DNA from: Xestospongia bergquistia
Taxonomy: Eukaryota > Porifera > Demospongiae > Haplosclerida > Petrosiidae
Assembly: GCA_963965975.1 (NCBI GenBank)
Contig: OZ014424.1
Location: forward strand, 3,906,001 to 3,970,000
Length of the DNA: 64,000 nucleotides
Direction of reading: 5' to 3'
Position 1 is the stretch's first letter. Every line of letters begins with the position of its first letter. Positions 1 through 40,967 of the stretch are shown piece by piece. The translations under genes and the position numbers were made by a program. Below the pieces are notes generated by a model. The model did not search any database, had not been told where the DNA came from, and saw only the letters and a list, made by a program, of their open reading frames with translations.

Positions 1-928
1 AGGAAGCATATATTGTATTAATTATTTAGCTATTTTAATTTCTCATGTTTACTGCAATTGTTAAAATGTGATTTCATTACTTTAATACAGGATATGTCTC
101 AAACTTAGTTTTATAAATTGACTTTTGTCAAGTCTAAATATACATTTATAATAATGTCTACTTTTATATCTTAATATTGGAATCACCTTCCATTTCCAGT
201 CATTTATATATGTGCAAATTTAATAAATTCATATTTTTACATTCAAATTACATACTATCTATTAATGTTTTGTTAAAGTATGATGCAAACTGAAAGTAAA
301 CATTATACTGTTTTCATTCCTAACATACTTTCAGATTGATTGTTTCATTACACTGTTTACATTCCTAACATACTATCACATTAACTGAATATTGTAAGTA
401 CACTAGGAATGAAAACAATGTTATGTTTACTTTTAGTTTGTATTAAATAATTTGCTACATACATATAACCTGTATAGACATATATTGGTTAAACTAACCA
501 ATTAATTTTACAGTGACATACATTATCTTACTTCAAATAATTCAATGTATTGTTTAGATAAAATGACAAACAAACTGAAAGTGTTGTCTTTAGTATCAAT
601 TAGAATATTTTGTAATGAATATATTTAACAACAGCTTATTTTTAAGTAACATTTCTGAAAAACAGAGTAGTTGTATGCAGATATAGAACTTTCAACATAT
701 CAATGATCAAAGAGTGGAGATTTGTGAGTGACTTTATTAATATATATAGCTATTGAGTTTAATTTAAATAATCAATGAGAATATTCTCTCATAAGGAGTA
801 ATATAATTATATAGGTTGTATTTTGTAATCACTACATATTAGAGTGCAGTTGTATAATATATATTTGAAGTTTTAGATCAATATTATTAATGGAAATTAT
901 TGTTCCTTGTAGGATATCATTATAAAGA
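1..928 (+). promoter_or_regulatory. Upstream module of receptor-like gene A, with a predicted 5'-UTR intron
   Basis: This AT-rich stretch has no coding region. It matches 12,649-14,086 collinearly, and its 5' start matches about 36,735 onward, so it is a repeated upstream module that is cut by the window edge. The last 380 bases (552-928) are the best conserved part. Within them GTGAGT at 724 looks like a splice donor and TTGTTCCTTGTAG ending at 912 like an acceptor, which predicts a 189-nt intron in the 5' UTR just before the ATG at 929. The equivalent sites exist in gene B (13,903-14,069). A partial MITE with inverted arms lies at 283-440. The promoter role is inferred from conservation and position. 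Confidence 0.5.
283..530. mobile_element. Partial MITE, same family as 23,171-23,536
   Basis: Inverted arms at about 283-325 and 399-440 share the core ATTCCTAACATA and its complement. The right end (to about 530, with CAGTGACATACAT) matches the terminal repeat of the full element at 23,171-23,536. The outer left arm is missing. Partial relatives lie at about 10,140-10,290 and 13,430-13,540. It is non-coding and was probably mobilised by a DNA transposase in trans. Confidence 0.55.
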
Positions 929-3900: not shown

Positions 3901-4672
3901 AACAGCAAGTTATTCTGTTCAAGTCCTGGCTAGTCTCATCCACCTCTCCTTCTCCAAAGTTCTCATCACTTGTATAGACATCATAGCTTATGTTCCTGTT
4001 CATACAGCAGAAGAAGGAACAATGGTAGTGTGGTATGGTGATGGTAATGTTGAATATCTCTCCAGTCCTCAACATATTGTTCTGTTTACTGTAGCTATGA
4101 TAAGTTTGTTGTTGTATATAGTACCTTATATATTGTTTGTTACTTTGGGTAGATATTGTATGAGATGGAGATGTGTAAATAAGTACTTGCGTCCATTTCT
4201 AGAGGCTTTTCAAGGTCCTTACAAACAAGAACAAGGTTACTGGTATGGAGTGAGGATGATAACTGTTGTATATGTCTATTTGATGTGGGCAGTTTTTAGA
4301 GGATATAATTTTAACATAATGTTGTTAATGCAACTAACACCAGTTCTTATATTATGCATCATCCAGGCATCTCTTAAACCATTTCGTAGTTCCAGGTTAA
4401 ACCATGTTGATACATTTTGTCTGATATTGTCCATATGTCAAATTCTGTTGGCTCTTGTTTTTGGTTATAGATATTACTGGTTGTCTTTTGTGATGGCTTC
4501 ATTTAACTACATAATTCTTATTTTATTAATGGTTGTGATTGGATGTCAATGTTTGCAGAAATTGAAATGCAAGTTAAGAAGAAAAAGAAGCCATAGTCAT
4601 GGTCATGTAATTATCCCATCAGATGAAGAGGATGATGAGATGAGACAAGCTCTGTTATTACTTGCTGATTAA
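929..4672 (+). CDS. Receptor-like membrane protein A: beta-helix-like ectodomain plus multi-span C-terminus
   Basis: This is an intact single-exon gene of 1247 aa. Residues 1 to about 28 form a signal peptide (a hydrophobic run after MASFHSM). Residues about 60-600 are rich in N-glycosylation sites and in short repeated beta-strand-like turns, which suggests a right-handed beta-helix. A cysteine cluster (GILCSQC, then FGSTECRTCS, residues about 850-873) precedes about seven hydrophobic segments (about 875-1215), with PFLEAFQGPYK between spans. The tail is basic and then acidic (DEEDDE). I know this layout from uncharacterised proteins of sponges, cnidarians and choanoflagellates; the ligand and signalling are unknown. 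The ATG at 929 follows a predicted UTR splice acceptor and heads the signal peptide. Gene B is a close paralogue and gene C a decayed one. Surface location and a receptor role are inferred. Confidence 0.8.
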   Translation: MASFHSMILVILVIALLNFIKLLSTHIVQINTSNQLWFWLCSDNIPLQNNLTLHLTQSNYILHNMSFCLIENVSNLTLKGMGSDGKSSIKCQLQDDSTTGFGFVNISSVTLENLEFTGCGATITKSAVTFFNNTHPHLGYKQKALLVFNHCHNITIQHVNITNYIGYAIFMLNPLNSSLMNHVRVTMGTAGASDCTDSSMFGCAGSGIFIIFKDTQQTSPNMAPVNVILSHSNLQFNFNIIPNIPPLTLIGHDICSFPVVGAGGLTVLFNQSFLARFSSQSVLIGYGLGNGGTVTGNILVIFYNGMVNSQLSLTDTDIPNGYLFPSTNQIGGACLTIISTLCQTCPFIGTKEFPVWTPISLNNVQIYACGSGSSMGTEETFVKYGGGFSLKILEFCGARSIVLLLKRVQYRRNYAYKSGSSLYAFVTNSVLRDNNISLIIEDANITFSYKGAATYTLYSTVAGLTLINWNNVTFRGNSQFTENNSPMIAAYNSNIHMTGQLLFRKNTGTMGAAIQLFSSFLILHEPLNATFLDNSALLYGGAIYGDNVVIPGHHRCVIQINTNKTDLYNIDIILKFKGNIAGLAGNNIYATPLYNCSFLYQQHDSFELVHFDWKSIAHFNTPNSLNNGLEPMSSKPVKICSCQFNNNTNKVVKKCSQFYAIPNVINTYAGKTVTISLCAVDDSGTIVYSPAVLSITNYHYKQDKLSENGLYLKQGQTLVPLSGSNCTQIHYIVLSKLDELKHGRLHIAAPGSPPSWSAELYIHPCPMGFMLKEDECVCDSFIVDMLPSTKCNITTTTITIYSGQWLGHISSDNKSKLVFASVCPPGNCKIDTLLFNVTDPFSICESNKMGILCSQCQHNMSVVFGSTECRTCSDMWLITIVGYALSGLLLVAIMLALPLTISEGPLGGIIIAMNITSVSTIDYLDSNNWFVYTARIFVSLMNLNLGFPMCLYNGMTPTVKTVIQFVYPVYLWVLIIGFIIFSHYSTRISNRTASYSVQVLASLIHLSFSKVLITCIDIIAYVPVHTAEEGTMVVWYGDGNVEYLSSPQHIVLFTVAMISLLLYIVPYILFVTLGRYCMRWRCVNKYLRPFLEAFQGPYKQEQGYWYGVRMITVVYVYLMWAVFRGYNFNIMLLMQLTPVLILCIIQASLKPFRSSRLNHVDTFCLILSICQILLALVFGYRYYWLSFVMASFNYIILILLMVVIGCQCLQKLKCKLRRKRSHSHGHVIIPSDEEDDEMRQALLLLAD

Positions 4673-12648: not shown

Positions 12649-14086
12649 TAGGAAGCATATATTGTATTAGTTATATAGCTATTTCATGTTTCCAAATGTT
12701 TTTTACACTATTATTAAAAATATGATTACTTAAATACAACAAATGTCTCAAACTTATAAAATTGACTTCGTCAAGTATAAACATACATTTATAATAATGT
12801 CTACTTTTATATCTTAATATTGCAACCACCTTCCATTTCCAGTCAATAATTGTGACCTGATTTGCAAAACAGTCAAAACATTTGTGACCTTACTTGTGAA
12901 AAAAAACATTGTTAAAAATACCCAAAAAAACAGTTTTACATACATATAAAATAGTTATGCATATATAATAACTGTATGTATACAAAACTGCTTTTTGATA
13001 TGTTTTAACAGTTGGATTTTTGACAAATCAGGTCACAAATGTTTTGACAGAAGTGGTCCCTTTTTGCAAATCAGGTCACAATTATGTTTATTTTATACAC
13101 AAATTTGATAAATTCATACTTTTACATTTATAATATAATACATGTCAGTAATTTCTTAGTAAAGTGTAGCTTTTACTGCTAGCCATAGTATAAATAATCA
13201 TAGTAACATCTGTTAAACTGTGTCCTAAATATATATAGATATACCTAGTTTGTTTTGATTCCAGTCAGTCAGTTAGAATATGTTTCTACATGTTTACATT
13301 ATTACTTTTAATAGCAGATAAATACTAATAACATAATCAATATTTAGTATTCAGCTCTTTCATTGTTAATGTTAAAGGACATATCTTGTTTATGGATCAA
13401 TTAATTAATTTATAGCTACTACATCAAAGGTTGATTAAATATCCTAAATACATTAGGAATGAAAACAGTGTGATATATTTATTAGTTTGTATCAAATAAC
13501 TTTGCTACATACATAAAACCTGTATAACTGTATAAAAAAATCAAAAACTCTAATCAACATAGTCAGTTCTTAAATTGAGAGGTCTTACTCATAATAATTC
13601 AATGTATATACTTATTTCTAATATATGGCTACTACGACAAAGACTATAGACTATACACTAGTCTCTGTTACACATAAAATATTAGACTTTACTCAAAATA
13701 GTCCCATGTATATATATGTCTTTACATGTTGTTTAGATAAAATGACAAATAAACTGATAGTGTTGATTTTTGCATTAATTAATATATTTGTCATGAAAAA
13801 TAACAACTTGTCTTTATATGAACATTTCCTAAGAGGCACAATAGTTAGTGCAGATAGGACTTTCCAGTTAATTGTCTATCAAAGATCAAGGAGTGAAGAT
13901 CTGTGAGTGACCTTATTAATATAGCTATTCGAATAATTAACAAATATATTCTGCCATGAAGAGTATTATATATAGGTGGTTTTGTAAGCACTACATATTA
14001 GAGTGCAATTATATACATATTCAAAGATTGTAGATCAATATTATTAATAACAGTCATTGTTCCTTGTAGGATATTGTTATAAAACA
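12649..14086 (+). promoter_or_regulatory. Upstream module of receptor-like gene B
   Basis: It is collinear with 1-928. A MITE is inserted at 12,846-13,085, precisely where the gene A module is uninterrupted. The conserved proximal block is 13,733-14,086. The predicted UTR intron is 13,903-14,069, with donor GTGAGT and acceptor TTCCTTGTAG. The in-frame TTG at 14,057 lies inside this predicted intron and is not a start; the homologous ATG is at 14,087. Confidence 0.5.
12846..13085. mobile_element. MITE with long terminal inverted repeats, 240 bp
   Basis: The ends are perfect inverted repeats of 24 bases beginning ATAATTGTGACCTGATTTGC. A second inverted block just inside (GTCAAAACATTTGTGACC and its complement) extends the arms to about 45-55 bases with a small gap. 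The interior is AT-rich and non-coding. Comparison with the empty site in the gene A module (around 203) shows it is an insertion. No clear target-site duplication is visible, so the superfamily is unknown. Confidence 0.8.
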
Positions 14087-17000
14087 ATGACATCATTTCA
14101 TAGTACAATGTTGGTTATACTTGTTATTGGTCTTTTAAACTTTATTAAACCACTTTCTACTCATATTGTCCAAATTAATACAAGTAATCAACTTTGGTTC
14201 TGGTTATGCAGTGAAAATATACCACTGAAAAATAACTTGACACTTCATTTGACACAAAGTAACTACATACTTCATAACATGAGCTTCTGTCTTATTGAAA
14301 ATGTTAGTAATCTTACATTAAAAGGAGTGGGATCTGATGAGAAATCATCAATTAAATGTCAATTACAAGATGACTCAACTACTGGTTTTGGCTTTGTCAA
14401 TATATCCAGTGTTACTTTAGAAAACTTAGAGTTTACTGGATGTGGAGCAACGATAACAAAGTCAGCTGTGGCATTCTTTAATGACACTCACCCACATATA
14501 GGATATAAACAGAAAGCATTACTGGTATTTAACCATTGTCACAATATAACAATACAACATGTTAATATTAGCAATTATATTGGATATGCTATCTTTATGT
14601 TAAATCCTCTTAACTCATCATTAATGAATTGTGTTAGAGTCACAGCAGGAACAGCTGGTGCTAGTAACTGTACTGATTCTAGTATGTTTGGTTGTGCTGG
14701 TAGTGGTATATTTGTAATGTTTAAAGACACTCAACAAACCTCTCCTAATATGGCAACTGTTAATGTTATATTGTCACATTCAGACCTTCAATTCAATTTC
14801 AACATTATACCAAATGTACCTCCCTTGACTCTTATAAGACATGACGTATGTAGTCTTCCTGTGGTTGGTGCTGGTGGTCTAACAGTATTGTTTAATCAGT
14901 CATTTCTGGCAAGATTTTCAAGTCAAAGTACACAGATTGGTTATGGTTTAGGTAATGGTGGAACGGTAACAGGAAATATATTAGTGATATTTTATAATGG
15001 TATGGTTAACTCTCAATTGTCACTGACAGATACTGATATATTCAATGGAATTCTTTTGTCTTCAACTAATCAAATTGGTGGTGCATGTCTTACTATTATC
15101 TCAACTTTGTGTCAAACATGTCCTTTTAGCAGTTCTAAAGAATTGCCAGTTTGGACACCAATTTCTTTAAATGATGTCCATATGGTAGGTTGTGGTTTTG
15201 CAACTAATATGGCAACTGAAGAAATTTTTATCAAATATGGAGGAGGATTCTATTTAAACATTTTTGAATTTTGCAGAACTATGTCAATTGTCTTACTACT
15301 TAAAAGAGTGGAATACAGAAAAAACTATGCTTATAAATCTGGGTCTTGTCTTTATGCTTTTGTAACAAACTCTGTCTTAAGAGACAACAATATATCTATA
15401 ATAATAGAAGATGTTGAAATAAGATCAAATCGTAAAGGTTCTGCTAAAAGGACACTCTATTCTACAGTTGCAGGTTTAACATTAATTAATTGGAACAATG
15501 TTACATTTAGAGGTAACAGCCACTTTACTGAAAATGACTCTCCAATGATTGCAGCATATAACAGTAACATACACATGACAAGACAACTATTGTTTAGAAA
15601 GAATACTGGTATCATGGGAGCTGCCATACAATTACTTTCTTCATTCCTTATTCTTCATGAACCACTGAATGCTACATTCCTTAACAATAGTGCTTTATTA
15701 TATGGTGGAGCTATATATGGTGATAATGTTGTGATCCCTGGTCATCATAGATGTGTAATACAAATTAACACTAACAAAACAGACCTACACAATATAGATA
15801 TCATATTGAAATTTAAAGGGAACATAGCAGGACTTGCAGGAAACAACATTTATGCTACTCCTCTCTACAACTGTTCCTTTCTTTATCCACAACATGATAA
15901 GTTTGAATTAGTCCACTTTGACTGGAAATCAATTGCACATTTTGATACATCAAACTCTCTCAACAATGGACTAAAATCAATGTCTTCTAAACCAGTCAAA
16001 ATATGCACTTGTCATCTTAACTACAATACATATAAAGTGGTCAAACACTGCTCCCATTCTTATTCTATTCCTAATGTCATTAATACATATGCTGGTAAGA
16101 CAGTAACCATATCATTGTGTGCAGTTGATGATTCTGATACCATTGTTTACTCTCCTGCTGTTCTTTCTATCACAAATGATAATCATAAACGAGATGAATT
16201 GTCAAAAAACGTATTGTATTTAAAACAAGGACAAACACTTGTACCTTTGTCAGGAAGTAACTGTACTCAATTACATTACATTGTCCTAAGTAAACTAGAT
16301 GAACTCAAACATGGAAGGCTTAACATTGCAACACCAGGTAGTCCACCATCTTGGTCAGCTGAACTTTATGTACATCCTTGTCCAATGGGATTTATGTTAA
16401 AAGAAGATGAGTGTGTATGTGATAGTTTCATTGTTGACATGTCACCCTCTACAAAATGTAATATTACTACAACAACTATTACAATATATTCTGGTCAATG
16501 GTTGGGTCATATATCTTCCCACAATAAAAGTAAGTTGGTATTTGCTACAGTTTGTCCTCCTGGTAACTGTAAAACTGACACTCTATTATTTAATGTGACT
16601 GATCCCTTCTCTATTTGTGAGTCAAATAAGATGGGCATTCTCTGTTCACAATGTCAACATAATATGAGTGTTGTATTTGGTAGTACAGAATGTAGACCAT
16701 GCTCTGATCTGTGGTTAATTACAATAGTTGGATATGCTTTATTCGGTCTGCTATTGGTAATAATAATGCTTGCATTGCCTCTGACTATATCAGAAGGACC
16801 ATTAGCTGCTCTCATAATAGTTATGAATATCACTTCTGTTTCAACTATTGACTATTTGGATAGTAACAATTGGTTTGTGTACACTACTAGAGTCTTTGTT
16901 TCCCTCATGAACCTTAATCTAGGTTTTCCAATGTGTTTGTACAATGGAATGACACCAACTGTTAAAACTGTTATACAATTTGTTTATCCAGTGTACTTGT

Positions 17001-17830
17001 GGGTTTTGGTAATTGGATTCATCATATTCAGTCATTACTCAACTAGAATCTCAAATAGAACAGCAAGTTATTCTGTTCAAGTCCTGGCTAGTCTCATCCA
17101 CCTCTCCTTCTCCAAAGTTCTCATCACTTGTATAGACATCATAGCTTATGTTCCTGTTCATACAGCACAAGAAGGAACAATGGTAGTGTGGTATGGTGAT
17201 GGTAATGTTGAATATCTCTCCAGTCCTCAACATATTGTTCTGTTTACTGTAGCTGTGATAAGTTTGTTGTTGTATATAGTACCTTATATATTGTTTGTTA
17301 CTTTGGGCAGATATTGTATGAGATGGAGATGTGTAAATAAGTACTTGCGTCCGTTTCTAGAGGCTTTTCAAGGTCCCTACAAACAAGAACAAGGTTACTG
17401 GTATGGAGTGAGGATGATAACTGTTGTATATGTCTATTTGATGTGGGCAGTTTTTAGAGGATATAATTTTAACCTAATGTTGTTTATGCAAGTAACACCA
17501 GTTATTATATTGTGCATTATCCAGGCATTTATTAAACCATTCCGTAGTTCCAGGATAAACCATGTTGATACATTTTGTCAAATATTGTCTATATGTCAAA
17601 TCCTGTTTGCACTTGTGTTTGGTGGTAGATATTACTGGTTGTCTTTTGTGATGGCTTCATTTAACTACATAATTCTTATTTTATTAATGGGTGTGATTGG
17701 ATGTCAATGTTTGCAGAAATTGAAATGCAAGTTAAGAAGAGAAAGAAGCCATGATTGTGGTCATGTGATTATCCCAATGGATGAAGAGGATGATGAGATG
17801 AGACAAGCTCTTTTATTACTTACTGATTAA
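14087..17830 (+). CDS. Receptor-like membrane protein B: beta-helix-like ectodomain plus multi-span C-terminus
   Basis: This is an intact single-exon paralogue of gene A, 1247 aa from the ATG at 14,087 (MTSFHSTMLVI). It has the same layout: signal peptide, N-glycosylated beta-helix-like ectodomain, a cysteine cluster (GILCSQC ... ECRPCSDLW), about seven membrane spans, PFLEAFQGPYK, a basic stretch and an acidic tail (DEEDDE). Differences from A cluster in parts of the ectodomain (for example around 15,040-15,440), while the membrane region is almost unchanged. That is the pattern expected if the outside face diversifies and the inside is constrained or gene-converted. Two intact paralogues side by side suggest an expanding recognition family; the function is inferred. 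Confidence 0.8.
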   Translation: MTSFHSTMLVILVIGLLNFIKPLSTHIVQINTSNQLWFWLCSENIPLKNNLTLHLTQSNYILHNMSFCLIENVSNLTLKGVGSDEKSSIKCQLQDDSTTGFGFVNISSVTLENLEFTGCGATITKSAVAFFNDTHPHIGYKQKALLVFNHCHNITIQHVNISNYIGYAIFMLNPLNSSLMNCVRVTAGTAGASNCTDSSMFGCAGSGIFVMFKDTQQTSPNMATVNVILSHSDLQFNFNIIPNVPPLTLIRHDVCSLPVVGAGGLTVLFNQSFLARFSSQSTQIGYGLGNGGTVTGNILVIFYNGMVNSQLSLTDTDIFNGILLSSTNQIGGACLTIISTLCQTCPFSSSKELPVWTPISLNDVHMVGCGFATNMATEEIFIKYGGGFYLNIFEFCRTMSIVLLLKRVEYRKNYAYKSGSCLYAFVTNSVLRDNNISIIIEDVEIRSNRKGSAKRTLYSTVAGLTLINWNNVTFRGNSHFTENDSPMIAAYNSNIHMTRQLLFRKNTGIMGAAIQLLSSFLILHEPLNATFLNNSALLYGGAIYGDNVVIPGHHRCVIQINTNKTDLHNIDIILKFKGNIAGLAGNNIYATPLYNCSFLYPQHDKFELVHFDWKSIAHFDTSNSLNNGLKSMSSKPVKICTCHLNYNTYKVVKHCSHSYSIPNVINTYAGKTVTISLCAVDDSDTIVYSPAVLSITNDNHKRDELSKNVLYLKQGQTLVPLSGSNCTQLHYIVLSKLDELKHGRLNIATPGSPPSWSAELYVHPCPMGFMLKEDECVCDSFIVDMSPSTKCNITTTTITIYSGQWLGHISSHNKSKLVFATVCPPGNCKTDTLLFNVTDPFSICESNKMGILCSQCQHNMSVVFGSTECRPCSDLWLITIVGYALFGLLLVIIMLALPLTISEGPLAALIIVMNITSVSTIDYLDSNNWFVYTTRVFVSLMNLNLGFPMCLYNGMTPTVKTVIQFVYPVYLWVLVIGFIIFSHYSTRISNRTASYSVQVLASLIHLSFSKVLITCIDIIAYVPVHTAQEGTMVVWYGDGNVEYLSSPQHIVLFTVAVISLLLYIVPYILFVTLGRYCMRWRCVNKYLRPFLEAFQGPYKQEQGYWYGVRMITVVYVYLMWAVFRGYNFNLMLFMQVTPVIILCIIQAFIKPFRSSRINHVDTFCQILSICQILFALVFGGRYYWLSFVMASFNYIILILLMGVIGCQCLQKLKCKLRRERSHDCGHVIIPMDEEDDEMRQALLLLTD

Positions 17831-22038: not shown

Positions 22039-23061
22039 ATAGTTCAAAGATATCTAGAGGAACATCTTCATCATTATAAACACCTCCATTAGCTCAGTTC
22101 AATATCATCTTGAGTCATATCATCAAGTACTCGATAGAACCAAGGCATCGTAAAGTTAGTATAACATGCAGCTTCAATACTGTCACAGCTCTTACCATCC
22201 GACAGAGGATCATTAACATAGAGAATTGGTGTTAAAATTTTACCAGGATCAAGACCAGACTCACAGTAGTAATGATTACCAACAAAAGATGAAAGCACAT
22301 TTGCACTGCCAGAGTAACCTGTGTTACATGGGTAACTATATTGAACAACTCTGTCTTCCTGTCTTCCACCAGCATATGTCCAGATGTGTGTATGAGGGTT
22401 TTGTTCATAAACATCATGAACATAATAAATGTCTATACCTTCACTGAGAGGTTCAAATGCATCAGGATTGCAATATTGATATCCTCTAACTTGTCCACAC
22501 ACTTTGGAGTATTTGAGACCAAGAGTGGAAAATGTAGTTGAACTACAACTACTTGAAGAGGAAGAAAAATGGTCGACCACATACTCCATGATCAATATTG
22601 ATATATTGTTGTAGTAAGAGTCCAGGAGGACAGGTAGCACTAGACTCAGTCATATTAAGATAAGCCACTCTAGTCCAACCACCTTTCCCATCACAGTGGG
22701 TACTATTCATGTATCATGTCACAATAAACCTAAATATGTGATATTTAGGCATAATATTATCATTGAGTTATGATACATTACTAAATATGTTCTTAATAGA
22801 GTTTTGTAAACAATAGTTACCAATTGTTGAGTGTCTCTATCAGGATATGTTGGATAATAATAATAACAGTTCTTCATAATACCCAAATCATACCAATCCT
22901 TACAGCTTCTAGGTAGAGGACAATCTATAAAATAATAATGAGTAGAGGAAAATGATATATTTAAATGTAATACCTTGAGGACAGTTTCCATTGACAGTAT
23001 TGATGAGAGTAATAGAGTATAACAGAGCTACTGCTACATACAGAAGGATGTTATACCTCAT
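22039..23061 (-). pseudogene. Secreted cysteine-rich lectin-like protein, damaged
   Basis: Minus strand. Exon 1 (23,061-22,974) encodes a clean signal peptide (MRYNILLYVAVALLY...) ending NCPQ before a GT donor. Exon 2 (about 22,930-22,822) encodes DCPLPRSCKDWYDLG. Exon 3 (about 22,724-22,039) carries GGWTRVAYLNMT, CPPGLLL, CGQVRGYQY, HTHIWTYAGG, NHYYCESG, SIEAACYT, PWFYRVL, and a displaced tail EDVPLDIFELYVH. This is the order of an uncharacterised secreted domain common in sponges and cnidarians. The frame changes at least three times in exon 3 (near 22,705, 22,575 and 22,105) and a short conserved piece is missing near the end. It is probably a pseudogene unless the assembly has errors. A second damaged copy lies at 24,040-24,400. 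Confidence 0.65.
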
Positions 23062-23170
23062 GGTGATTGAAGAACTGTATTTCCTGCTTGCCTTTTTTTG
23101 TTAATCAGTCAGTTTCTTTTATACAAGAATATAAAAGAAACACAAGAACTTAGTACTAGTACATACATAA

Positions 23171-23536
23171 ATACATGTGTCACTGTAAAAATTGATTGGT
23201 TGATTTAACCAATATATGGTTGCATAGGTTGCATGTATGTACCAAATTATTTGATGTAACTAAAAGTAGACATCGCACTGTTTTCATTCCTAACATAGAA
23301 TTACAGTGATTTAGTGTAAGCCCAGGAAGACATTACTAACAGAATATCATATTGACTAAACAGTTAATCTGATTATATGTCAGGAATGTTTAGTCAATCT
23401 AATATATGTTAGGAATTAAAACAGTATAATATTTATCTTCAGTTTGCAATTGTATCAAATAATTTGTTACATAAATGCAATGTGTATAACTATATATTGG
23501 TTAAACCAACCAATCAAGTTTTACAATGGCATGCAT
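23171..23536. mobile_element. MITE with about 125-bp terminal inverted repeats
   Basis: The left arm (from about 23,171-23,181, CACTGTAAAAATTGATTGG) and the right arm (to about 23,528-23,536) are complementary for roughly 125 bases, including TTAACCAATATAT and ATTCCTAACATA. The short interior is non-coding. Partial relatives lie at 283-530, 10,140-10,290 and 13,430-13,540. It sits just upstream of the secreted-protein pseudogene. Confidence 0.75.
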
Positions 23537-24039
23537 ATCATCATTTGTGAAGTCACCTTTCTTGTTAATTCAAGCTGATTGACATAATGTTGAATATATT
23601 ACCATCTTAAATATATTATATATGATTTGTATTTAAAGAAGGAGGCCATTCTTTAGTTCTGTCTTGTATGTTTGTTTTATATTAGATGAAGAGTTTATAC
23701 AATAGTAGTGACATAATGAACTGACTATTTATTTCTTGTAAACAGGTTCATGGAGAAGTTATTCCTAAGTCAAACAGATAGCATCTGTTCGCATACTATC
23801 AATATACTATTACCATTTTTCTTTTTATCAAAATAAAGTATTCATTACTAGTTCAAAGGTGTGTTTGATACAATTACTTGAAACAATTTAATAATAATAA
23901 TACTCCAATTGTAATAATACTTTAATAGGCAGGTCCATGAGAGTCACTACAATAGAAAAAGTTGGATAATGTAACAAAGCTATATGAACAAATTAACCTA
24001 TTACCTTAACTAAACATAGTTCATATATACACTACATAT
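23537..24039. other. Intergenic, nothing recognised
   Basis: AT-rich sequence without coding potential. An AATAAAG near 23,834 could be a polyadenylation signal for an unseen transcript. Confidence 0.35.
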
Positions 24040-24400
24040 CTACCACCAAAGTAACCTGTATTACATGGAAAGCTATCAGCATCTAATAATTTTTCTGTTT
24101 GTCCAGCAGCATATGTCCAAATGTGTGTACAAGGATTTGTCAATAAATAATAGAAATACCATTAACATAATAAGTGTTACTGTAATCTACAAGGCATCAG
24201 GATCCTTATATTGATATCCTCTGATTTGTCTGCACACTTGCAGTAATTGAGTCCAGGAGTGGACAACCAGTTGAAGAGGAAGAAGTAAATCGACCAGACA
24301 GTCCATGATTAATGTTGTTATATTGTTGTAGTGAGAGTCCAGGAGGACAGATAGCACCAGACTGAGTCATATTAAGATAAGTCACTCCACTTTCCTATCA
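24040..24400 (-). pseudogene. Second copy of the secreted lectin-like protein, fragment
   Basis: The minus strand is similar to 22,700-22,300: the TESSATCPPGLLLQQY-type segment, the CGQVRGYQY-type segment and the HIWTYAGG / PCNTGY segments can be matched in order, with deletions and stops. Exons 1 and 2 were not found. It is a clearly dead tandem relative. Confidence 0.6.
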
Positions 24401-25412: not shown

Positions 25413-25809
25413 ATATTTCAATTTCAAGTAATCTGTTTAAAAATGCTTCAACATGTTTTATTACCTTGTAGTGTGAAGTGAGCACATTTGAAGCAGACTT
25501 TCATACACTACTTAAAGAATCAACCTCATTTCTATTGATTATCATGTTATTTATACATTTTTTGTTTATATTATTAAATATGAAATTATGATAAATTCAA
25601 TGGAAAGTTTTTGCTGAAATGCTCTTGGGACTCTAGAACTTGTGGCAGTGAAAGAAAAAGTACTGTTGTGTTAATTTAGCTAATCACTGTTTACTGCAAT
25701 AGCTTATATGCAGAATTGAAGACTTCCAGGACAAAGTAATAAAAGCGTGGGAGTTATCACTCCCAGATATATACAATAAGTTGATTATGGAGATTGTTTC
25801 TAAATCATT

Positions 25810-28800
25810 ATGATTGATATAAGTCAATGGAGAGCTAGTATTGGGTTATGGTATTGTCATCAGATACCATATACCACTAAAAAGACCCCTTGTATCACTG
25901 AAACCCCTGGATGGATGAAGTCACAATTGACATTAGGAGATGAGGGTGGTGGTATTTTGATATTTTCTCTAGTTTTGTTTTTCTTACTTCTCCTCATTTT
26001 ATCAGGAGATATTGAACTTAACCCTGGACCTCAAACAGGTCAGTAAACATTAACACACAACTGATGTCTCATTTATTTCAATAGAATTGACATCAAATAA
26101 TGCTCTACAGCTTCTTGTTAAGAGTGGTTTTGTTGTTAAAGATAAATGGACTGAACTCACTAGTCTTCTAGGTGTATCATTGCAGGAGAGGAGAAGACTC
26201 AACAAAATGGCCAGCAGTGATCAAGACTTTCACTCTGCTCTAGAGGAAGGTTTACAATGGTGGATTACAAACAGTACTGCTCCCTCTTGGGAAGAACTTA
26301 TCTCAGCAGTTGAAAGTTGTGGTAATGTGGATGTTGTTATTACACTAAGAAGACAACTAGATATTAAAGATGAAGGTATCTACAATGTATAGTTCATTAT
26401 AATAATAATCAATGTAGTGTAATATATTTGTAAAGTATATAATAGACATTGAAGCTTTACTCTCAGAAAGTGATGGAAATGGCTTGACAGTTCCTTCCTT
26501 TCTTTAACAAGGGCAAATAAAAAGACAGACAGAAGGAACAAGTGATCAAGCTAGAAGGCCTTCATGTGGTAACTCTGTAGATCTTTCTAGTACCATAGCA
26601 AATGCCAGTGCTACAGAAAATGATGAAGTTCAAAAAATATTGAAGAGTATATTGACAAGTCATTTTGCTGACTTAAGTAACCAGTTAAGTAGATGTTTAT
26701 CACGAGTTTCTGCAGCAATGTATTCTAAAAGACTGATAAGCGAATCAGTTAGAGATTCTCCAACTGTTTATAGTGTAATTGGTGAATTTGAAAGTGGAAT
26801 GAATTTAGTGAACAATATTTCAAAGTTACAGAAACATTGTCAACTTTTCTTACAATGTCTATCCAGTGAAGGTGGTCCTACTAAATTAGCTGCTCAAAAG
26901 TTATGTCAAGAATGGGTTGATGAAGTCAAAAGGAAATGTGATATCTCACTAGATCTTACATGTGATGATCTTATACAACAGGATATAAACCAACAAGGTC
27001 AGTATTATAAAATGATCAGGCACTTGCATTTTTGAATGAAGCACAAAATATGTGTTGTTCTTTCTTTATGTTATTATAATAAAATTATGTTAGACATGTT
27101 ACAACGAATCCTCATATATCTGGACTTCTTTAATCTGAACTTTTAGATTATCTGAACAAGCTCATGATATTATTTATTCATGAATACATAATAATTAATG
27201 GATTAATAAAGTCCACATGTTCCAGAACAATGGTTGAAGCTGATCCATACTAGCCAAATTTATTAGTATATCATGATATTGTTTTGATTACTAATACATG
27301 ATGGAATTAACTGTTCGTGTAGCTAATTGTTAAAACTATGATGATTTTATAAATAGCTAGATCAGATGATGTTTATCTAACTACACAAACTGTCAATTCC
27401 ATAGTATCAGTAATCAAAACAGCATATGTTGTTAATACTTCATTGTATTTGTAGGAATGCATGAAACCTAAGTGACTGTATCAGTTAAAACAACTATTTA
27501 ATAGTGAATATAAAACCATTGGTATGTGTATATATGTATATATATACATACATATACACTGTATTTCCTTCATTAAATGCCTATATACTTCAAATAAATG
27601 CCAGCCTTGAATAAACACCTGGAGCAAACACAAGTATTGTGCAAATAAACCCTACCCTGAATAAATGCCAGGTCTAGATTCAAATTACCCTGCTTTTTGT
27701 AAGTAGTGTAACCTTGACTAGTCATTTTACAAAGTGGGCGGGGTAGTAAACCATGTGCAAATCTTCTGAGAAATGAACACCTGCCATATTTAATGTCAGG
27801 TGGAAAATGGTTTGTTTTGATGCTTTTGGTATCCTTTATAAGTTGTTAATTTAGGCTAAACAAGGACTCTGTTTCATTAGTGCTTTCCATTTATGTAGGG
27901 ATTAATTATCAAGAAATAACAGTTACTCCGGACTATCCTGTAGCTGAAAAATTGAAAAGTCTTCACAAAGAATATAATGATTTAGTTAAAAATATTAAAA
28001 ATGCCCTACGTAAACTAATTGATAATGGAACACTTGAACTTATTGATATTTCTGATTATCTTGGAGAATATTTTAGAATAGAAGGATTAACAGATTCTAC
28101 AGATATTCCAAATCTATTTCAGCGACTTTGGCCATATTACAGCTACCTTGATGTTGAGGTATTAGAAGTTATCATTGACAATGATGACTTCCTAATTGAT
28201 GAGAGGATACAGAATGACATTTGTACTTATAAACAGCATCTTGAAGAATTTAAGCAATCAACAACACTTGAAAAATTCAAGAACGCAGTTGAAGAAGCAT
28301 TGATACCAAATCCAGAAGTCACATTAATTACTTGTGAAGTGGTTATCAAACTTAATCGTGAATGGGGAAAAAAAACGTTGGAGAATTTCAAAACACTAAT
28401 TAACTACATGTTTCATCAAAGAATGACTCATATACGAGTGGAGGAAGGGTCATTATGTGTAACTCTACTTGTACTTCGATCGAGATTAGACTATATCTTA
28501 GAAATTGCCACTCTAAAAAATGATTTTGCATTACTTTTTGGTATCTTTGAACTGACTATTGATGATCAACCTATCTTGAAAGAGAAAGAAGAAACTCATT
28601 TTTCTTTTGACCAAGCATTTCAAGAGGCTTCAAGACTTGGCAATAATGAAGCTGTTCAGTTCTTACTTAACTTATTTGATAGTATTAATTTTCAAAGCAA
28701 AGAGAGCAGTACAGCACTTATGCTAGCTAGTAAAGGTGGACATGAACAAGTTGTACAAACACTAATATCAGCTGGAGCTAATCCTAACATTCAAGATAAC

Positions 28801-31800
28801 ACTGGCTATACTGCATTGATGCTAGCATGTGATACAAACTCCTACACTATAGTCAACTGCCTACTCCAGACTGGAGCTAATCCTGATATGCAAAGAAATG
28901 ATGGAGATACAGCTATCATAATAGCATGTCGAAATAATCATTCTGATATTGTGAAGTTATTACTTCAATTTAATGCTGATCCACTTATTACTACAAGAAA
29001 TGATGATACAGCTCTCACTGTATCTGTACATGTAAACTCCATCGAGATAGTGGAAATGTTACTTGATAAACTGCTTGAGAGCCAGAAATCAAGTTTAGTG
29101 GTAACAGCTCTCACTACAGCATGTCAATATGGACACTCTCAACTTATTATCAGTTTATTAGTCCGCTTACTAGACTATTTTACACAAGAGGAATTCCAAC
29201 TTTTCATATTGTGTGCTGAAGGAGATTACATTTCTACAGCAACTCATATTTTTGACTCTACTGTTGATGTCAACTGTACACTAGTCAATGATATCACTCC
29301 TCTTATGATAGCCTCATCTTGTGGACATATAGAGACAGCAGAAGTCCTCTTACAAGGTGGAGCTAATGTCAACAGTACAGACAGTGATGGGTACAGTCCA
29401 CTAGTATATGCTATAACAGGACACAAGTCACTTCAAGTTATAGAACAACTACTTAAAGCTGGTGCTCAGTCTAATGTCTTCATTAATGACCAGAGTATTG
29501 TTGATGAAGTAAGAAAAGAAGGAAGAGAACATATCTCTAAATTGTTACAACAGTTTAATGTTTTTAATATAACAGAAAAAGAAAAGGAGGAGGAACAACA
29601 GTTACAGATCTCTAGTGAATGTTTGATCATCTCTATTATTGAGGCTGCAAAAATAGGCAATACTGAGATGGTTAAATCACTACTCAAAAAGAATGCAGAT
29701 GTTAATATTCAGTCTACAATTGGTGAAACTGCCTTAATGCTAGCTAGTCAATATGGTCATGCCCAGGTTGTTGAACTACTACTCAAAGAGAAAGCAGATG
29801 TTAATATTCAAAAAGAAGATCGATGGACTGCACTAATGCTAGCTAGTCGAAATGGTTGTACCCAGGTTGTTGAGCTGTTACTCAAAGAAAATGCAGATGT
29901 TAATATTCAGTCTACAATTGGTGAAACTGCCTTAATGGTAGCTAGTCAATATGGTCATACCCAGGTTGTTAAACTACTACTCAAAGAGAATGCAGATGTC
30001 AATATTCAAAAAGAAGACCAATGGACTGCATTAATGCTAGCTAGCCGAAATGGTCAAACCAATGTTGTTGAGCTGTTACTCAAAGAGAATGCAGATGTTA
30101 ACATTCAGTCTACAATTGGTGAAACTGCCTTAATGCTAGCTAGTCAATATGGTCGTACCCCAGTTGTTGAACTACTACTCAAAGAGAATGCAGATGTTAA
30201 TATTCAAAAAGAAGATCGATGGACTGCACTAATGCTAGCTAGTCGAAATGATCGTAACAAGGTTGTTAAGCTGTTACTCAAAGAGAATGCAGATGTTAAT
30301 ATTCAGTCTACAATTGGTGAAACTGCCTTAATGCTAGCTAGTCAATATGGTCGTATCCAGGTTGTTGAACTACTACTCAAAGGGAATGCAGATGTTAATA
30401 TTCAAAAAGAAGATCAATGGACTGCACTAATGCTGGTTAGTCGAATTGGTCATACCAATGTTGTTGAACTACTACTCAAAGCGAATGCAGATGTTAATAT
30501 TCAGTCTACGATTGGTGAAACCGCCTTAATGCTAGCTAGTCAATATGGTCATACTCAGGTTGTTGAACTACTACTCAAAGAGAATGCGGATGTTAATATT
30601 CAAAAAGAAGATCAATGGACTGCACTAATGTTGGCTAGTCGAAATGATCGTATCAAGGCTGTTGAGCTGTTACTCAAAGAGAATGCAGATGTTAGTATTC
30701 AGTCTACAAATGGTGAAACTGCCTTAATGCTCGCTAGTCAATATGGTCATATCCAGGTTGCTGAACTATTACTTAAAGAGAATGCAGATGTTAATATTCA
30801 AAAAGAAGATCAATGGACTGCACTAATGCTAGCTAGTCAAAACGGTCATACCCAGGTTGTTGAACTACTACTCAAAGAGAATGCAGATGTTAATATTCAA
30901 AAAGAAGATCGATGGACTGCCTTAATGCTAGTTAGTAGAAATGGTCATACCAAGGTTGTTGAACTACTACTCAAAGAGAATGCAGATGTTAATATTCAGT
31001 CTACAATTGGTGAAACTGCCTTAATGCTAGCTAGTCAATATAGTCATACCCAGGTTGTTGAACTACTGCTCAAAGAGAATGCAGATGTTAATATTCGGTC
31101 TACAATTGGTGAAACTGCCTTAATGGTAGCTAGTCAATATGGTCATACCCAGGTTGTTGAACTACTACTCAAAGAGAATGCAGATGTTAATATTCAAAAA
31201 GAAGATCGATGGACTGCCTTAATGCTAGTTAGTCGAAATGGTCATACCAAGGTTGTTGAACTACTACTCAAAGAGAATGCAGATGTTAATATTCAGTCTA
31301 CAATTGGTGAAACTGCCTTAATGCTAGCTAGTCAATATGGTCATACCCAGGTTGTTGAACTACTACTCAAAGAGAATGCAGATGTTAATATTCGGTCTAC
31401 AATTGGTGAAACTGCCTTAATACTTGCTAGTCAATATGGTCATACCCAGGTTGTTGAATCAATACTCAAAGAAAATGCAGATGTTAATATTCAGGATGAA
31501 TATGGATGGACTGCCCTAATGCTAGCTAGCCAAAATGGTCATACTGGTGTTGTTGGACAACTACTCAAAGAGAATGCAAATGTTGATATTCAGTCTACAA
31601 TTGGTGGAACTGCATTAATGCTAGCTAGTCAATATGGTCATACCCAGGTTGTTGAACTACTACTCAAAGAAAATGCAAATGTTAATATTCAGAATGAATA
31701 TGGGTGGACTGCCCTAATAATGGCTAGTCTAGGTGATCATACAGAAGTTGCTGAACTATTACTCAAAAAGAATGCAGATGTTAATATTCAGAGCACAAAT

Positions 31801-32712
31801 GGAGTGACTGCCTTAATGGTAGCTATTTTGAATGCAAATCTTGAATTAGTTGAATACTTACTACAATCAAAAGCAGATCCTCATATAGTAGTATATTTTG
31901 AAGGGTTTGAAATAACAGCATTGTCATTAGCAATTGTTTCTGGTAAAAGAGATATCGCTAAGATGCTCATTGACAAAAGTGAACCCACTACTGATGAGTT
32001 TGAAAAAAATGTAGTAACATCATGTTATTTTGGTGACCTTACTCTAATTACCTTCCTCTCAAACAAACTTCCACACTTCACTAATTATCAGAGAGAACTA
32101 CTAGACTCATGTATTAATGGAGTTTTACATACAGTTGTATGGAAGGCATTAGATAGTCCAGATACTCCACTGGTATGTGATGTCACTCCACTCATGGTAG
32201 CTTCATCATGTGGACATGTTGATATAGTGGATGCTCTCATACAAGCTGGAGCTGATGTTAATAAACAAGAAAGTTATTGGGGGTTAACTCCTTTATACTT
32301 TGCAATATCTGGTGGACAATCCACTTCGATAGTAGAGATGCTCTTAAAGAATGATGCTAATCCTAATGTTATTGTTAACAATGAAACTCCGTTAGATGTA
32401 GCTAATAAGACTGAGCAGGAAACAATCATTGAGCTATTAATTAAATATGGAGGTAAAACAGCATCACAAGCATCTAATGAAACAACGAACATACCTACAT
32501 CTTCACTAACAACCAGTGAATTGACAAATGAAGTTAACAAGAAACAGACAAACAGAAATAGATTGCCAAATTTGGAGTCCATTAATTTATTCACTTCACA
32601 CATCTTAAATCGTACTCATACATTTAGAGATACCAGTGCAAAACAAGAAAAAATAAAACAAGACAACAAGGAAAAAGGTCAACAAGATTATCTTATTCCA
32701 ATTACATCCTAA
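25810..32712 (+). CDS. 2A/signal - Death domain - ankyrin repeat protein, four exons
   Basis: Exons: 25,810-26,038, 26,085-26,375, 26,512-26,997 and 27,899-32,712; all introns are phase 1 with GT-AG ends; about 1939 aa. Residues about 48-73 are a hydrophobic run leading into GDIELNPGP, a canonical 2A motif (skipping expected between G73 and P74). A second in-frame ATG at 25,915 would give a compact signal-like N-terminus. Residues about 80-170 are a Death domain (KWTELTSLLGVS ... PSWEELISAV). Residues 174-335 are helical; about 336-565 is a conserved region without a known name (FQRLWPYYSYLD, WGKKTLENF). About 566-1855 holds roughly 30 ankyrin repeats, 22 of them highly homogenised. Skipping would yield a short membrane or secreted peptide plus a cytosolic Death/ankyrin protein; without skipping the protein could enter the secretory route. 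Likely an innate-immune or apoptosis adaptor (inferred). Confidence 0.8.
27281..27420. mobile_element. Small MITE in intron 3 of the 2A/Death/ankyrin gene
   Basis: Imperfect inverted arms of about 45 bases start GTTTTGATTACTAATAC and end GTATCAGTAATCAAAAC. The interior is AT-rich. It is an intronic insertion and does not touch the splice sites. Confidence 0.6.
27560..27840. repeat. Interspersed repeat fragment in intron 3
   Basis: It contains several diverged copies of a short AAATAAATGCCAG / TTGAATAAACACC unit in a row, a pattern I associate with dispersed short repeats in invertebrate genomes. Non-coding. Confidence 0.4.
29636..31870 (+). repeat. Homogenised 99-bp ankyrin repeat array inside exon 4
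   Basis: About 22 consecutive 33-residue ankyrin repeats are nearly identical at the DNA level. They mostly alternate between two types, one with DVNIQSTIGETALMLAS and one with DVNIQKEDRWTALMLAS, which gives a 198-bp higher-order period. The alternation breaks at about 30,890 and 31,090 (two repeats of the same type in a row), consistent with unequal exchange. Flanking ankyrin repeats are much more diverged. Confidence 0.9.
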
Positions 32713-36135: not shown

Positions 36136-37253
36136 AAGTAACTACAAGACAATGCACAAGTAGTTGCTTGTTATGAATAATCATATGTAAGTCCTATCTC
36201 TTTGTAAACTAAGGAAAGTACACATATGAAAAGAAAAATATAAGAGAACAATAGCATTACAGACATATTATCTTTTAAATAGTCCAATGTAATATCAGTG
36301 TTAAGGTGGTGTCTATGAGCTTCATTGATTACAGTAACACTGTATGAATCATGTGCTAGTCATGTATCCATACTTACTTAATAATGGATTTCACATCATT
36401 TCTATAATCAAGATACTATCAGTGAGAAACTAGAGAATATGATATACATGTATATAACTCACATATACACTGTAGTAATGAAGTTGAATTTACATCAACT
36501 GACTAAGTTACATTACTTTTATTTTTGTATCTTTCACATCAGTGCAATAATCAAAACGAACACAGTAACAAACCTAAAAATTGAAAAAATAGACATCACA
36601 TTTCAAACTTATTATACATCAATGATCCATTAATGTTCATTGCCTCATGACCCAGAACATGACTCAAATGTAGTAGATGAGTTTATCACAATGAAATATG
36701 TCAATCTTTGACTATAGAGTGAACTAAATAATTTTGTTTTAATGATTAGGAGGCATATCTTGTATTAGCAATTTAGTTATTTCATGTTTCCCATGTTTTT
36801 GGACTAATTATTGTTATAAAAATATACCTCCTTTTCTTAAATACAACATGCATATTACTCACACTCTATTAGTTAATTTATAGTTACTACAACAAATATT
36901 ATAGACTATACACTAGTTTATGTTATATATAAAATATTAGACTTTACTCAAAATAATCTCATGTATATATATGTCTTTACATGTTGTTTATATTGTATTC
37001 ATGTGAATAGTAACAAGTCATCTATTATCAATATGATTAATACATCTAATAATAATATCAGTATAATTGTGTATTGATTTCAGTACTATGTCTCTACATG
37101 TAACATTATAACTGACAGGTTGTTGTCATATATAGCAGATGTTTACTGATGAATTAAATAGAACATAAACATTATTCCTAATTATAGTAACATCTGTATA
37201 ACTGTGTCCAAAATATATGTAGATATGTCTAATTTGTTTTAATTCCAGTCTGG
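36136..37253 (+). promoter_or_regulatory. Upstream module of receptor copy C (distal part only)
   Basis: It is collinear with 10,230-10,880. The proximal block seen before genes A and B (predicted UTR exon, intron and ATG) is absent: at 37,253 the module joins directly to the second base of the lost start codon region. No coding content. Confidence 0.5.
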
Positions 37254-40200
37254 CATCATTTCATAGTATAATATTGGTTATACTTGTTACTGCTCTTTTA
37301 ATCTTTATTAAACCACTTTCTATTCATATTGTTCAAGTTAATACAAGTAATCAACTTTGGTTCTGGTTATGTAGTGATAATATACCACTGCAGAATAATT
37401 TGACACTTCATTTGACACAAAGTAACTACATACTTCATAACACGACCTTCTGTCTTGTTGAAAATGTTAGTAATGTTACACTAAAAGGAGTGCGATCTGA
37501 TGAGAAATCATCAATTAAATGTCATTTACAAGTCTCAACTACTGGTTTTGGCTTTGTCAATATATCCAGTGTTACTTTAGAAAACTTAGAGTTTACTGGA
37601 TGTGGAGCAACAATAACAACGTCAGCTGTGGCATTCTTTAATGACACCCACCCACATTTAGGATATAAACAGAAAGCATTACTGGTATTTAACCATTGTC
37701 ACAATATAACAATACAACATGTTAACATCACCAATTATATTGGATATGCTATCTTTATGTTAAATCCCCTTAACTCATCATTAATGAATCATGTTAGAGT
37801 CACAGCAGGAACTGGTGCTAGTGACCGTACTGATTCTAGTATGTTTGGTTGTGCTGGTAGTGGTATATTTGTAATGTTTAAAGACACTCAACAAACCTCT
37901 CCTAATATGGCACCTGTTAATATTATATTGTCACAGTCATACCTTAGACTCAACTTCAACATTATACCAAATGTACCTCCCTTGACTCTTATAGGACATG
38001 ACATATGTAGTCTTCCTTTGGTTGGTGCTGGTGGTCTAACAGTATTGTTTAATCAGTCATTTCTGGCTAGATTTTCAAGTCAAAGTGGTGATTGCTCAGA
38101 TACTTATGGAGCAATAACAGGAAATATATTAGTGATATTTTATAATGGTATGGTCTACTCTCAACTGTTACTGACAGATACTGATATATTCAATGGAGTA
38201 CTTCTTCCTTCAACTAATCAAATTGGTGGTACATGTCTTACTATTATCTCAACTTTGTGTCAAACATGTCCTTTTATCAGTAATAAAGAATTGCCAGTTA
38301 GGACACCAATTTCTTTAAAAAATGTTGAAATAGTTAGTTGTGGTTCTGGAACTAAAATGGCAACTAAATTTAGTCATATCAAATATGGAGAAGGATTCTA
38401 TTTAAACATTTTTTTAATTTTGGGGAGCTAGATCAATTGTCTTGCTACTCAAAAGAGTGCAATACAGAAAAACTATGCTTACAAATCTGGATCTGGTCTT
38501 TATGCTTTTGTATCAAACTCTGTCATAAGAGACAACAATATATCTATAATAATAGAAGATGTTGACATAAGAGAAAATCATAAAGGTTCTGCTAGTTACA
38601 CACTGTATTTTACTGTTGCAGGTTTAATATTAGTTAATTAGAACAATGTTACATTTACAAGCAACAATAATTTTTATGAAAACAACTCCCCAATGATTGC
38701 AGCATATAAGAGCAATATACACATGACAGGACAACTATTGTTTAGAAAGAACACTGGTACCATGGGAGCTGCCATAGAACTATTTTTTTCATTCCTTATT
38801 CTTCAAGAACAAATGATGGCTACATTCTTTGGCAATACTGCTTTATTATATGGTGGAGCTATATATGGTGATAATGTAGTGATCCCTGGTCATCATAGAT
38901 GTGTTATACAAATTAACACTAACAAAACAGACCTACACAATATAGACATTACATTGAAATTTAAAGGGAACATAGCAGGACTTGCAGGAAACAACATTAT
39001 GCTACTCCTCTCTACAACTGTTCCTTTCTTTATCCACAACATGATAAGTCTCAATTAGTCAACTTTGACTGGAAATCAATTGCACATTTTAATACACCAA
39101 ACTCTCTCAACAATGGACTGAAACCAATGTCTTTTAAACCAGTCAAAATATGCTCTTGTTATCATAACAACAATACATTTATAGTGGTCAAACACTGCTC
39201 CCATTCGTATGCTATTCCTAATGTCATTAACACTTATGCTGGTAAGACAGTAATCATATCATTGTGTGCTGTTGATGATTCTGATACCATTGTTTACTCT
39301 CCTGCTGTTCTTTCTATCACAAATTATCACCATAAACAAGATAAATTGTCAGAAAATGGATTGTATTTAAAACAAGAACAAACACTTGTACCTTTGTCAG
39401 GAAGTAACTGTACTCAATTACATTACAATGTCCTTAGTAAAGTAGGTGAACTCAAACATGAAAGGCTTAACATTGCAACACCAGGTTGTCCACCATCTTG
39501 GTCAGCTGAACTTTATGTACATCCTTGTCCAATGGGATTTATGTTAAAAGAAGATGAGTGTGTATGTGATAGTTTCATTGTTGACATGTCACCCTCTACA
39601 AAATGTAATATTACTACAACAACTATTACAATATATTCTGGTCAATGGTTGGGTCATATATCATCTGGTAAAAAAAGTAAGTTGGGATTTGCTTAAGTTT
39701 GTCCTCCTGGTAACTGTAAAACTGACACTCTATTATTTAATGTGACTGATCCCTTCTCTATTTGTGAGTCCAGTAAGATGGGCATTCTCTGTTCACAATG
39801 TCAACATAATATGAGTGTTGTATTTGGTAGTACAGAATGTAGACCATGCTCTGATCTGTGGTTAATTACAATAGTAGGATATGCTTTATTTAGTCTGCTA
39901 CTGGTAGCAATAATGCTTGCATTGCCTCTGACTATATCAGAAGGACCATTAGCTGGTATCATAATAGCTATGAATATCACTTCTGTTTCAACTATTGACT
40001 ATTTGGATAGTAACAATTGGTTTGTGTACACTGCTAGAGTCTTTGTTTCCCTCATGAACCTTAATCTAGGTTTTCCAATGTGTTTGTACAATGGAATGAC
40101 ACCAACTGCTATACAATTTGTTTATCCATTGTACTTGTGGGTTTTGGTAATTGGATTCATCATATTCAGTCATTACTCAACTAGAATCTCAAACAGAACA

Positions 40201-40967
40201 GCAAGTTATTCTGTTCAAGTCCTGGCTAGTCTCATCCACCTCTCCTTCTCCAAAGTTCTCATCACTTGTATAGACATCATAGCTTATGTTCCCGTTCATA
40301 CAGCACAAGAAGGAACAATGGTAGTGTGGTGTGGTGATGGTAACGTTGAATATCTCTCCAATCCTCAACATATTGTTCTGTTTACTGTAGGTGTGATAAG
40401 TTTGTTGTTGTATATAGTACCTTATATATTGTTTGTTACTTTGGGCAGATATTGTATGAGATGAAGATGTGTAAATAAGTACTTGTGACCATTTCTAGAG
40501 GCTTTTCAAGGTCCCTACAAACAAGAACAAAATTACTGGTATGGAGTGAGGATGATAACTGTTGTATATGTCTATTTGTTGTGGGCAGTTATTAGATGAT
40601 ATAGTTTAAACCTAATGTTGTCCATGCAACTAACATCAGTTCTTATATTGTGCATTACTCAGGCATCTCTTGACCATTTCGTAGTTCCAGGCTAAGCCAT
40701 GTTGATACATTGTGTCTGGTATCGTCCATATGTCAATTTCTGTTGGCTCTTGTGTTTGGTGGTAGATATTACTGGTTGTCTTTTGTGATGGCTTCATTTA
40801 ACTACATAACTCTTATTTTATTAATGGGTGTGATTGGATGTCAATGTTTGCAGAAATTGATATGCAAGTTGAGAAGAGAAAGAAGCCATGATGGTGGTCA
40901 TGTGATTATCCCATCACATGAAGAGGATGATAAGATGAGACAAGCTCTTTTATTACTAACTGATTAA
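37254..40967 (+). pseudogene. Receptor-like copy C, pseudogene
   Basis: It is similar to genes A and B along its whole length, starting at TGGCATCATTTCATAG where A has ATGGCATCATTTCATAG. The start codon and the upstream control block are gone. The 385-codon first stretch is open. After that there are frame changes near 38,400 and 39,000, stops near 38,640 and 39,695, and further damage after 40,460. The tail (DKMRQALLLL) is still recognisable. It is a recent loss, since the open parts remain very close to A and B. Confidence 0.85.

Follow-up and report, generated by a model that had tools for sequence, protein, structure and literature searches.

A phase-1 2A/StopGo leader exon shared by many genes, a large part of them of predicted innate-immunity type, in the sponge Xestospongia bergquistia

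The window (the whole stretch of DNA analysed, 64,000 nucleotides of contig OZ014424.1 of Xestospongia bergquistia) contains a predicted four-exon gene in which a leader exon with a 2A-type (StopGo) motif is followed by a Death-type exon, an exon of no assigned family and a long ankyrin-repeat exon. Its features are:

25810..26038, forward strand: coding part of exon 1, the 2A leader exon (first ATG past an in-frame stop; 150 homologous genome places scored)
25810..25860, forward strand: conserved leader head MIDISQWRASIGLWYCH, residues 1-17 (conservation in 88 leaders, pN/pS 0.37)
25954..26001, forward strand: hydrophobic segment ILIFSLVLFFLLLLIL, residues 49-64 (Kyte-Doolittle)
26005..26031, forward strand: 2A/StopGo core GDIELNPG-P (exact D(V/I)ExNPGP, with LLILSG directly before)
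26039..26084, forward strand: intron 1, 46 bp, GT..AG, phase 1 (consensus sites)
26085..26375, forward strand: exon 2, predicted Death-fold domain
26512..26997, forward strand: exon 3, no assigned family (open frame, phase-1 flanks)
27899..32712, forward strand: exon 4 up to the stop codon, long ankyrin-repeat exon (Pfam Ank_2, open frame)
29679..31825, forward strand: near-tandem ankyrin array within exon 4 (Tandem Repeats Finder)

Read from the in-frame stop at 25801-25803, the frame has its first ATG at 25810, and the leader runs for 73 residues to NPG-P, rather than for the 38 residues that a start at 25915, as in the earlier note, would give; the next residues are P-Q-T plus one base of the following codon, the exon 1 peptide reading MIDISQWRASIGLWYCHQIPYTTKKTPCITETPGWMKSQLTLGDEGGGILIFSLVLFFLLLLILSGDIELNPGPQT-G and ending at the GT donor. 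The skip point lies between the Gly codon at 26026-26028 and the Pro codon at 26029-26031, and NPGP occurs only this once in the six frames of the whole window. Exons 1 to 4 all join in phase 1 under consensus splicing as predicted from the sequence, giving a spliced frame of 1939 residues from 25810 (1904 from the Met at 25915); retention of intron 1 would bring a stop after two codons.

Exon 2 is, in the predicted model, Death-like in fold, with the six helices of the Death fold. Its Pfam Death score is 17.8 bits, below the cut-off of 22.6 bits, and two exons on contig C7 that are similar to it (E 1.5e-10 and 3.3e-10) score above the Pfam Death cut-off. Foldseek with exon 2 returned nothing at E <= 0.001 (best 0.16, a chain of a Fas-FADD complex), and no Death match came up when PDB sequences were searched with a profile of exon 2; the best PDB match to that profile, 9gzg (26 residues, E 0.0003), was set aside as an engineered repeat protein. 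Exon 3 has no Pfam match, and an AF2 model of 26601-26996 within it (pLDDT 49) was too poor to use. Pfam Ank_2 recognises 21 stretches in exon 4, where the array at 29679-31790 has a 198 bp unit in 10.7 copies with 86% matches and a 99 bp row extends to 31825. A search of NCBIfam gave nothing useful, Pfam finds no NACHT in the spliced protein, and none of 95 NACHT matches in the genome falls inside the window. The earlier note had read a perfect 2A octapeptide after a hydrophobic segment, a phase-compatible Death domain beyond it and no reverse transcriptase downstream, and in these points it was right: GDIELNPGP is confirmed in a context of a known StopGo class, the exon at 26085-26375 is in phase with its fold predicted as Death, and no endonuclease, reverse transcriptase or PHD finger was found after the leader exon of the gene.

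Elsewhere on the forward strand of the window, three related large ORFs with similar hydrophobic starts lie at 926-4669, 14051-17827 and 37223-40461 (1248 and 1259 amino acids, the third being split into several frames), without a confident Pfam family in the two that were scanned whole. The ORF at 60600-62642 on the same strand, perhaps extending to 63098, probably encodes a ROCO-type protein (Roc E 0.0009 and COR-A E 0.0019, both below cut-off). Short cysteine-containing ORFs of the CGQVRGYQY type on the reverse strand at 22092-24394 resemble exons of secreted proteins; 22092-22649, the only one scanned, has no Pfam match.

The gene is not singular: there are at least 136 copies of the leader exon with the motif, and they also head NACHT genes and others. 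The DxExNPGP-coding pattern occurs at 164 places in the 146 Mb genome and the reversed pattern at none; for GDIELNPGP alone the figures are 86 and 0. Place lists include 161 of the 164 sites, among them C9:320687, which was judged tRNA-like by eye and left out of the stretches read; L101 is one of the remaining three. In a genome search with the leader peptide (best 150 of 191 candidates scored), 135 of the best 150 matches coincide with a listed motif, and L101, with DIEVNPGP, raises this to 136 of 150. Six of the 14 motif-less matches were read and comprise one with an N-to-K change, two with Gly in place of Asp, two with frameshifts and one with a stop; Gly for Asp is a known functional 2A variant, tied in viruses to other upstream motifs (PMC12846837, excerpt). 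The leader is thus a family shared by many genes, not an oddity of the window gene. About 63 kb upstream of the latter, L030 (C14:3868211-3869710) is a decayed duplicate of its exons 1 and 2, 96-97% identical, with one stop in each exon.

Conservation was followed in 88 leaders that differ from one another in DNA (86 different peptides), all carrying the motif, after exclusion of 22 motif sites that lack the head pattern, including places met more than once, truncated copies and sites of retrotransposon type. Leaders measure 61-77 residues to NPG. In the head, M1, I2 and R8 are present in 88 of 88, W7, G12 and W14 in 87, and Q6 in 86. The best 15-residue Kyte-Doolittle mean has a median of 3.17; this hydrophobic 15-mer starts 38-54 residues in (median 49) and stops short of the skip point by 3-10 residues (median 9). 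D(V/I)ExNPGP is present in all 88, a set itself chosen by DxExNPGP, and the hexapeptide before D is L-rich and ends in (A/S/C)G in every leader (LLILSG in 73), with Leu, not Ser, at p15 in 82. The residues G, D, E, N, P, G and P are invariant in 88 of 88 while their codons vary. Values of pN/pS are 0.37 for the head, 1.02 for the linker, 0.37 for the hydrophobic segment and 0.11 for the core, and in a more diverse set of 50 leaders 0.40, 1.02, 0.42 and 0.11, respectively. Constraint is strongest in the 2A core, in a set that was itself picked by the motif; given that selection, only the variation of codons and the comparison with the other parts are informative.

The leader exon could derive by exonisation from the 5' end of a non-LTR retrotransposon with a 2A, its motif being a relic that has no function in these genes, an explanation that we regard as very unlikely. 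Retrotransposon-type ORFs with a 2A do exist in the same genome: Pfam places a PHD finger after the 2A in L023 and L044, followed in L023 by a weak endonuclease-reverse transcriptase match (E 0.0002, below cut-off), L045 and L017-L019 resemble these ORFs by eye (all six lying on C1 and C4), and a scored reverse transcriptase lies 3.2 kb downstream of the motif at C6:6891582, which does not belong to the leader family. The QWRxxIGLW head, however, is not seen in the stretch upstream of the 2A in such ORFs, and the reverse transcriptases scored (best 150 of 1023 candidates) include none that lies within 12 kb downstream of any of the 135 leader places. Leader exons resemble 2A-bearing non-LTR retrotransposons in that the 2A lies in an animal ORF, and differ from them in having phase-1 splice sites that lead into Death-type exons. 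Leader matches without stops also keep the motif far more often (132 of 139) than those with stops (4 of 11; best 150 of 191; Fisher p 3e-6, which overstates the difference because tandem copies are not independent), which argues against a relic, though not against an ancient retroelement origin.

The domains found downstream place a large part of the predicted leader-headed genes in the innate-immunity type; counts are lower bounds, being intersections of place lists. Among the 135 leader places, at least 72 have a Death exon (located by tblastn) within 3 kb downstream, at least 46 a NACHT match and at least 21 an ankyrin match, the last figure resting on 59 of 249 Ank_2 matches, with the window gene not among them, and comparing with 2 places in an opposite-strand control. 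At least 90 have a match of one of these three kinds, and 45 have no match to Death exon 2, NACHT or ankyrin among the matches listed. Viewed from the other side, a same-strand 2A stands no more than 15 kb upstream of 50 of the 95 NACHT matches (no more than 4.3 kb for 47), whereas for 2 of 95 there is an opposite-strand 2A within 15 kb in either direction. In L021, the NACHT exon aligns to residues 91-424 of NLRP3 (E 1.4e-18). Lines resembling LRRs can be picked out by eye in the leader-bearing paralogues, while Pfam has no LRR match in their scanned exons. Of the other 45 NACHT matches, 29 form one cluster (C2:8.83-9.15 Mb) with no listed same-strand 2A within 15 kb upstream, which seems to be a second NACHT group without the leader.

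A phase-1 join to the next exon was found by pattern for 55 of the 88 leaders, 51 of which continue into the Death exon; the other 33 comprise 7 with another donor spacing and 26 without an acceptor pattern in the stretch examined. Among six loci on C3 and C4 (L037-L042), L037 and L042 have an exon related to the second, Death-like exon of L043 (BLASTP E 6e-19 for L043-L037 and 3e-18 for L037-L042), which itself matches Pfam Death with E 7e-4, below cut-off. Two single cases lead elsewhere: in L056 the leader is followed by Kelch repeats, and in L011 (C1:2165837-2175836, reverse strand) a divergent leader outside the 135 (MIDIGVWRARIGLF...GDVEVNPGP) is followed by TPR and CHAT exons, the latter caspase-like (E 1.3e-44). 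TPR and Kelch exons are, by eye, also compatible with a phase-1 join.

A comparison of 20 leaders with 5.8 billion predicted public proteins gave 713 matches, with DxExNPGP kept in 116 of the best 120, and in 19 of the best 120 the leader exactly matches one of the 88. With six divergent leaders a second search gave 327 matches (best 120 listed), in which relatives of the L011 type that keep the 2A are P0128, P0129, P0133 and P0134. Of 161 public leaders, including that of the window gene, 156 keep (D/G/C/N)(V/I)ExNPGP; since these proteins may come from the same species or close kin, they indicate the breadth of the family and not its age. A public ankyrin protein on a 70 kb contig has 43% identity over 33% of the query part. 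The absence of a retrotransposon protein from the public matches says little, candidates more than 1.75 times the length of the query never having been scored.

StopGo is described as frequent among RNA viruses and as a rarity in genes of cells (PMC12846837, excerpt). The sponge leaders share with the viral sequences the octapeptide D(V/I)ExNPGP, Gly at p11 and the L-rich (A/S/C)G class of hexapeptide, which corresponds to motifs 2 and 6, with Asp at p12 and Ser at p15, motif 6 having been assayed as active (PMC12846837, excerpt); unlike the viral ones, they are cellular, lie in a first exon and mostly have Leu at p15 where motifs 2 and 6 have Ser. The closest precedent is the 2A signal sequence of sea-urchin NLRs: 2A-like sequences are present in 85 of 241 of these and, as a 26-residue N-terminus, in 14 of 87 later entries (PMC4981915). 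SpNLR2A6 skips at about 80%, a qualitative estimate of its authors (Roulston et al. 2016; PMC4981915, excerpt), and its skip-dead mutant goes mainly to the Golgi (same source and extent). In both animals a 2A stands at or near the N-terminus of NLR-type genes in many copies per genome, with hydrophobic residues just before D(V/I)ExNPGP. The sponge leader, a predicted skipping element, differs in its length (73 residues in the window gene and 61-77 in the 88 copies, as against 26), in its separate conserved head, and in also heading Death-ankyrin, Kelch and, as a divergent leader, TPR-CHAT genes. The words "Sponge", "Amphimedon" and "porifera" are absent from PMC4981915. Among sponges, Dysidea avara is reported to have NLRs with transmembrane segments, first reported in Amphimedon, and "NPGP", "2A-like", "skipping" and "recoding" do not occur in this 2026 paper (PMC12909245). 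The NLRs of both sponges resemble the genes described here in being expanded Death/NACHT genes with a putative membrane form.

Two literature matches for 2A wording were unrelated things, a gene named "2a-like" and NPGPx, and no paper on 2A in sponge immune genes was present among the titles and beginnings of abstracts listed. Three works lie outside that scope: Rao and colleagues reportedly surveyed eukaryotic and viral 2A sequences in 2025 (said to be Cell Rep. 44, 115822), Odon and colleagues are said to have described 2A-bearing non-LTR retrotransposons in 2013, and Yuen and colleagues reportedly treated the Amphimedon NLRs in 2014.

With a probability of roughly three in four, we propose that the shared phase-1 StopGo exon heads many genes and mostly skips, and that the unskipped minority goes to a membrane. 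The proposal starts from the observed motif, frame, conservation, phase-compatible splice sites and downstream domain types, together with the predicted model of the Death-like fold. In the window gene, ribosomes arriving at NPG-P would mostly skip the Gly73-Pro74 bond and release the 73-residue leader, with its hydrophobic segment near the C-terminus, after which the Death-ankyrin protein would be made separately in the cytosol with proline as its first residue. In the unskipped minority, the full protein would keep the hydrophobic segment some 50 residues in from its N-terminus, where the segment would serve as a signal-anchor and bring the fusion to the ER or another membrane. With only about 9 residues between its end and the skip point, the segment should remain within the ribosome tunnel at the moment of the choice, and we infer from this that skipping is decided before the targeting machinery can recognise the segment; the residues with an influence on 2A lie no more than 30 from the site, a distance related to the length held in the exit tunnel (PMC2978324, excerpt). 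Near the C-terminus of the leader, the hydrophobic stretch does not make a classical N-terminal signal peptide, and the leader, once freed, would have a tail-anchored shape instead of being simply secreted. Two fates from one mRNA, for which the sea urchin offers a tested precedent (PMC4981915, excerpt), remain the best model, in which transcription, splicing, skipping and its efficiency, and membrane targeting are all inferred.

Alternatively, the leader might be an ordinary membrane signal-anchor in which DIELNPGP is conserved for structure or sorting and the ribosome does not skip. The constraint on the hydrophobic segment (pN/pS 0.37) fits this, as do the transmembrane segments reported for sponge NLRs (PMC12909245, excerpt); the constrained residues, however, are those of the StopGo octapeptide, together with the preceding Gly and the L-rich (A/S/C)G hexapeptide, whose class includes an active motif, and the sea-urchin analogue does skip at about 80% (PMC4981915, excerpt), and we hold this explanation to be highly improbable. 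A different departure from two fates, in our view less likely than not, is that skipping is essentially complete and the leader a separate small membrane peptide made beside each downstream protein. A canonical core with Asp at p12 in a motif 2/6 context would favour near-complete skipping, four assayed upstream motifs including motif 6 have efficiencies of about 93% to almost 100% (PMC12846837, excerpt), and conservation extends to the head of the leader, something not needed in a disposable signal; the sole characterised N-terminal 2A signal, on the other hand, leaves an unskipped part, recoding being estimated at about 80% (PMC4981915, excerpt). Some proteins under translocation inhibit 2A (PMC2978324, excerpt), so that the efficiency in vivo is not readable from sequence, and since leaders of 61-77 residues are far longer than the 26-residue sea-urchin sequences, targeting may differ as well.

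Beyond the mostly skipping exon with two fates, one may tentatively suppose, as a minority possibility, that a single portable phase-1 exon equips an entire innate-immune repertoire (NLR-type, Death-ankyrin, TPR-CHAT and Kelch) with StopGo, that the leader is a second functional product, and that cytosol and membrane forms shift jointly. Each gene of the repertoire would then yield, beside its own protein, a conserved, tail-anchored-like leader peptide of one common kind, and the partition of the repertoire between cytosol and membrane could be tuned through skipping efficiency, for example by translational stress, a control postulated for sea-urchin 2A by Roulston et al. (PMC4981915, excerpt).

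If the leader is active, it would be a second case, remote from the first, of NLR-type receptors whose dual targeting is under 2A control. It would also offer an explanation for sponge NLRs that have been called transmembrane, 2A leaders possibly lying behind such calls at their N-termini, and the role of dual targeting in innate sensors would become testable with many natural variants.
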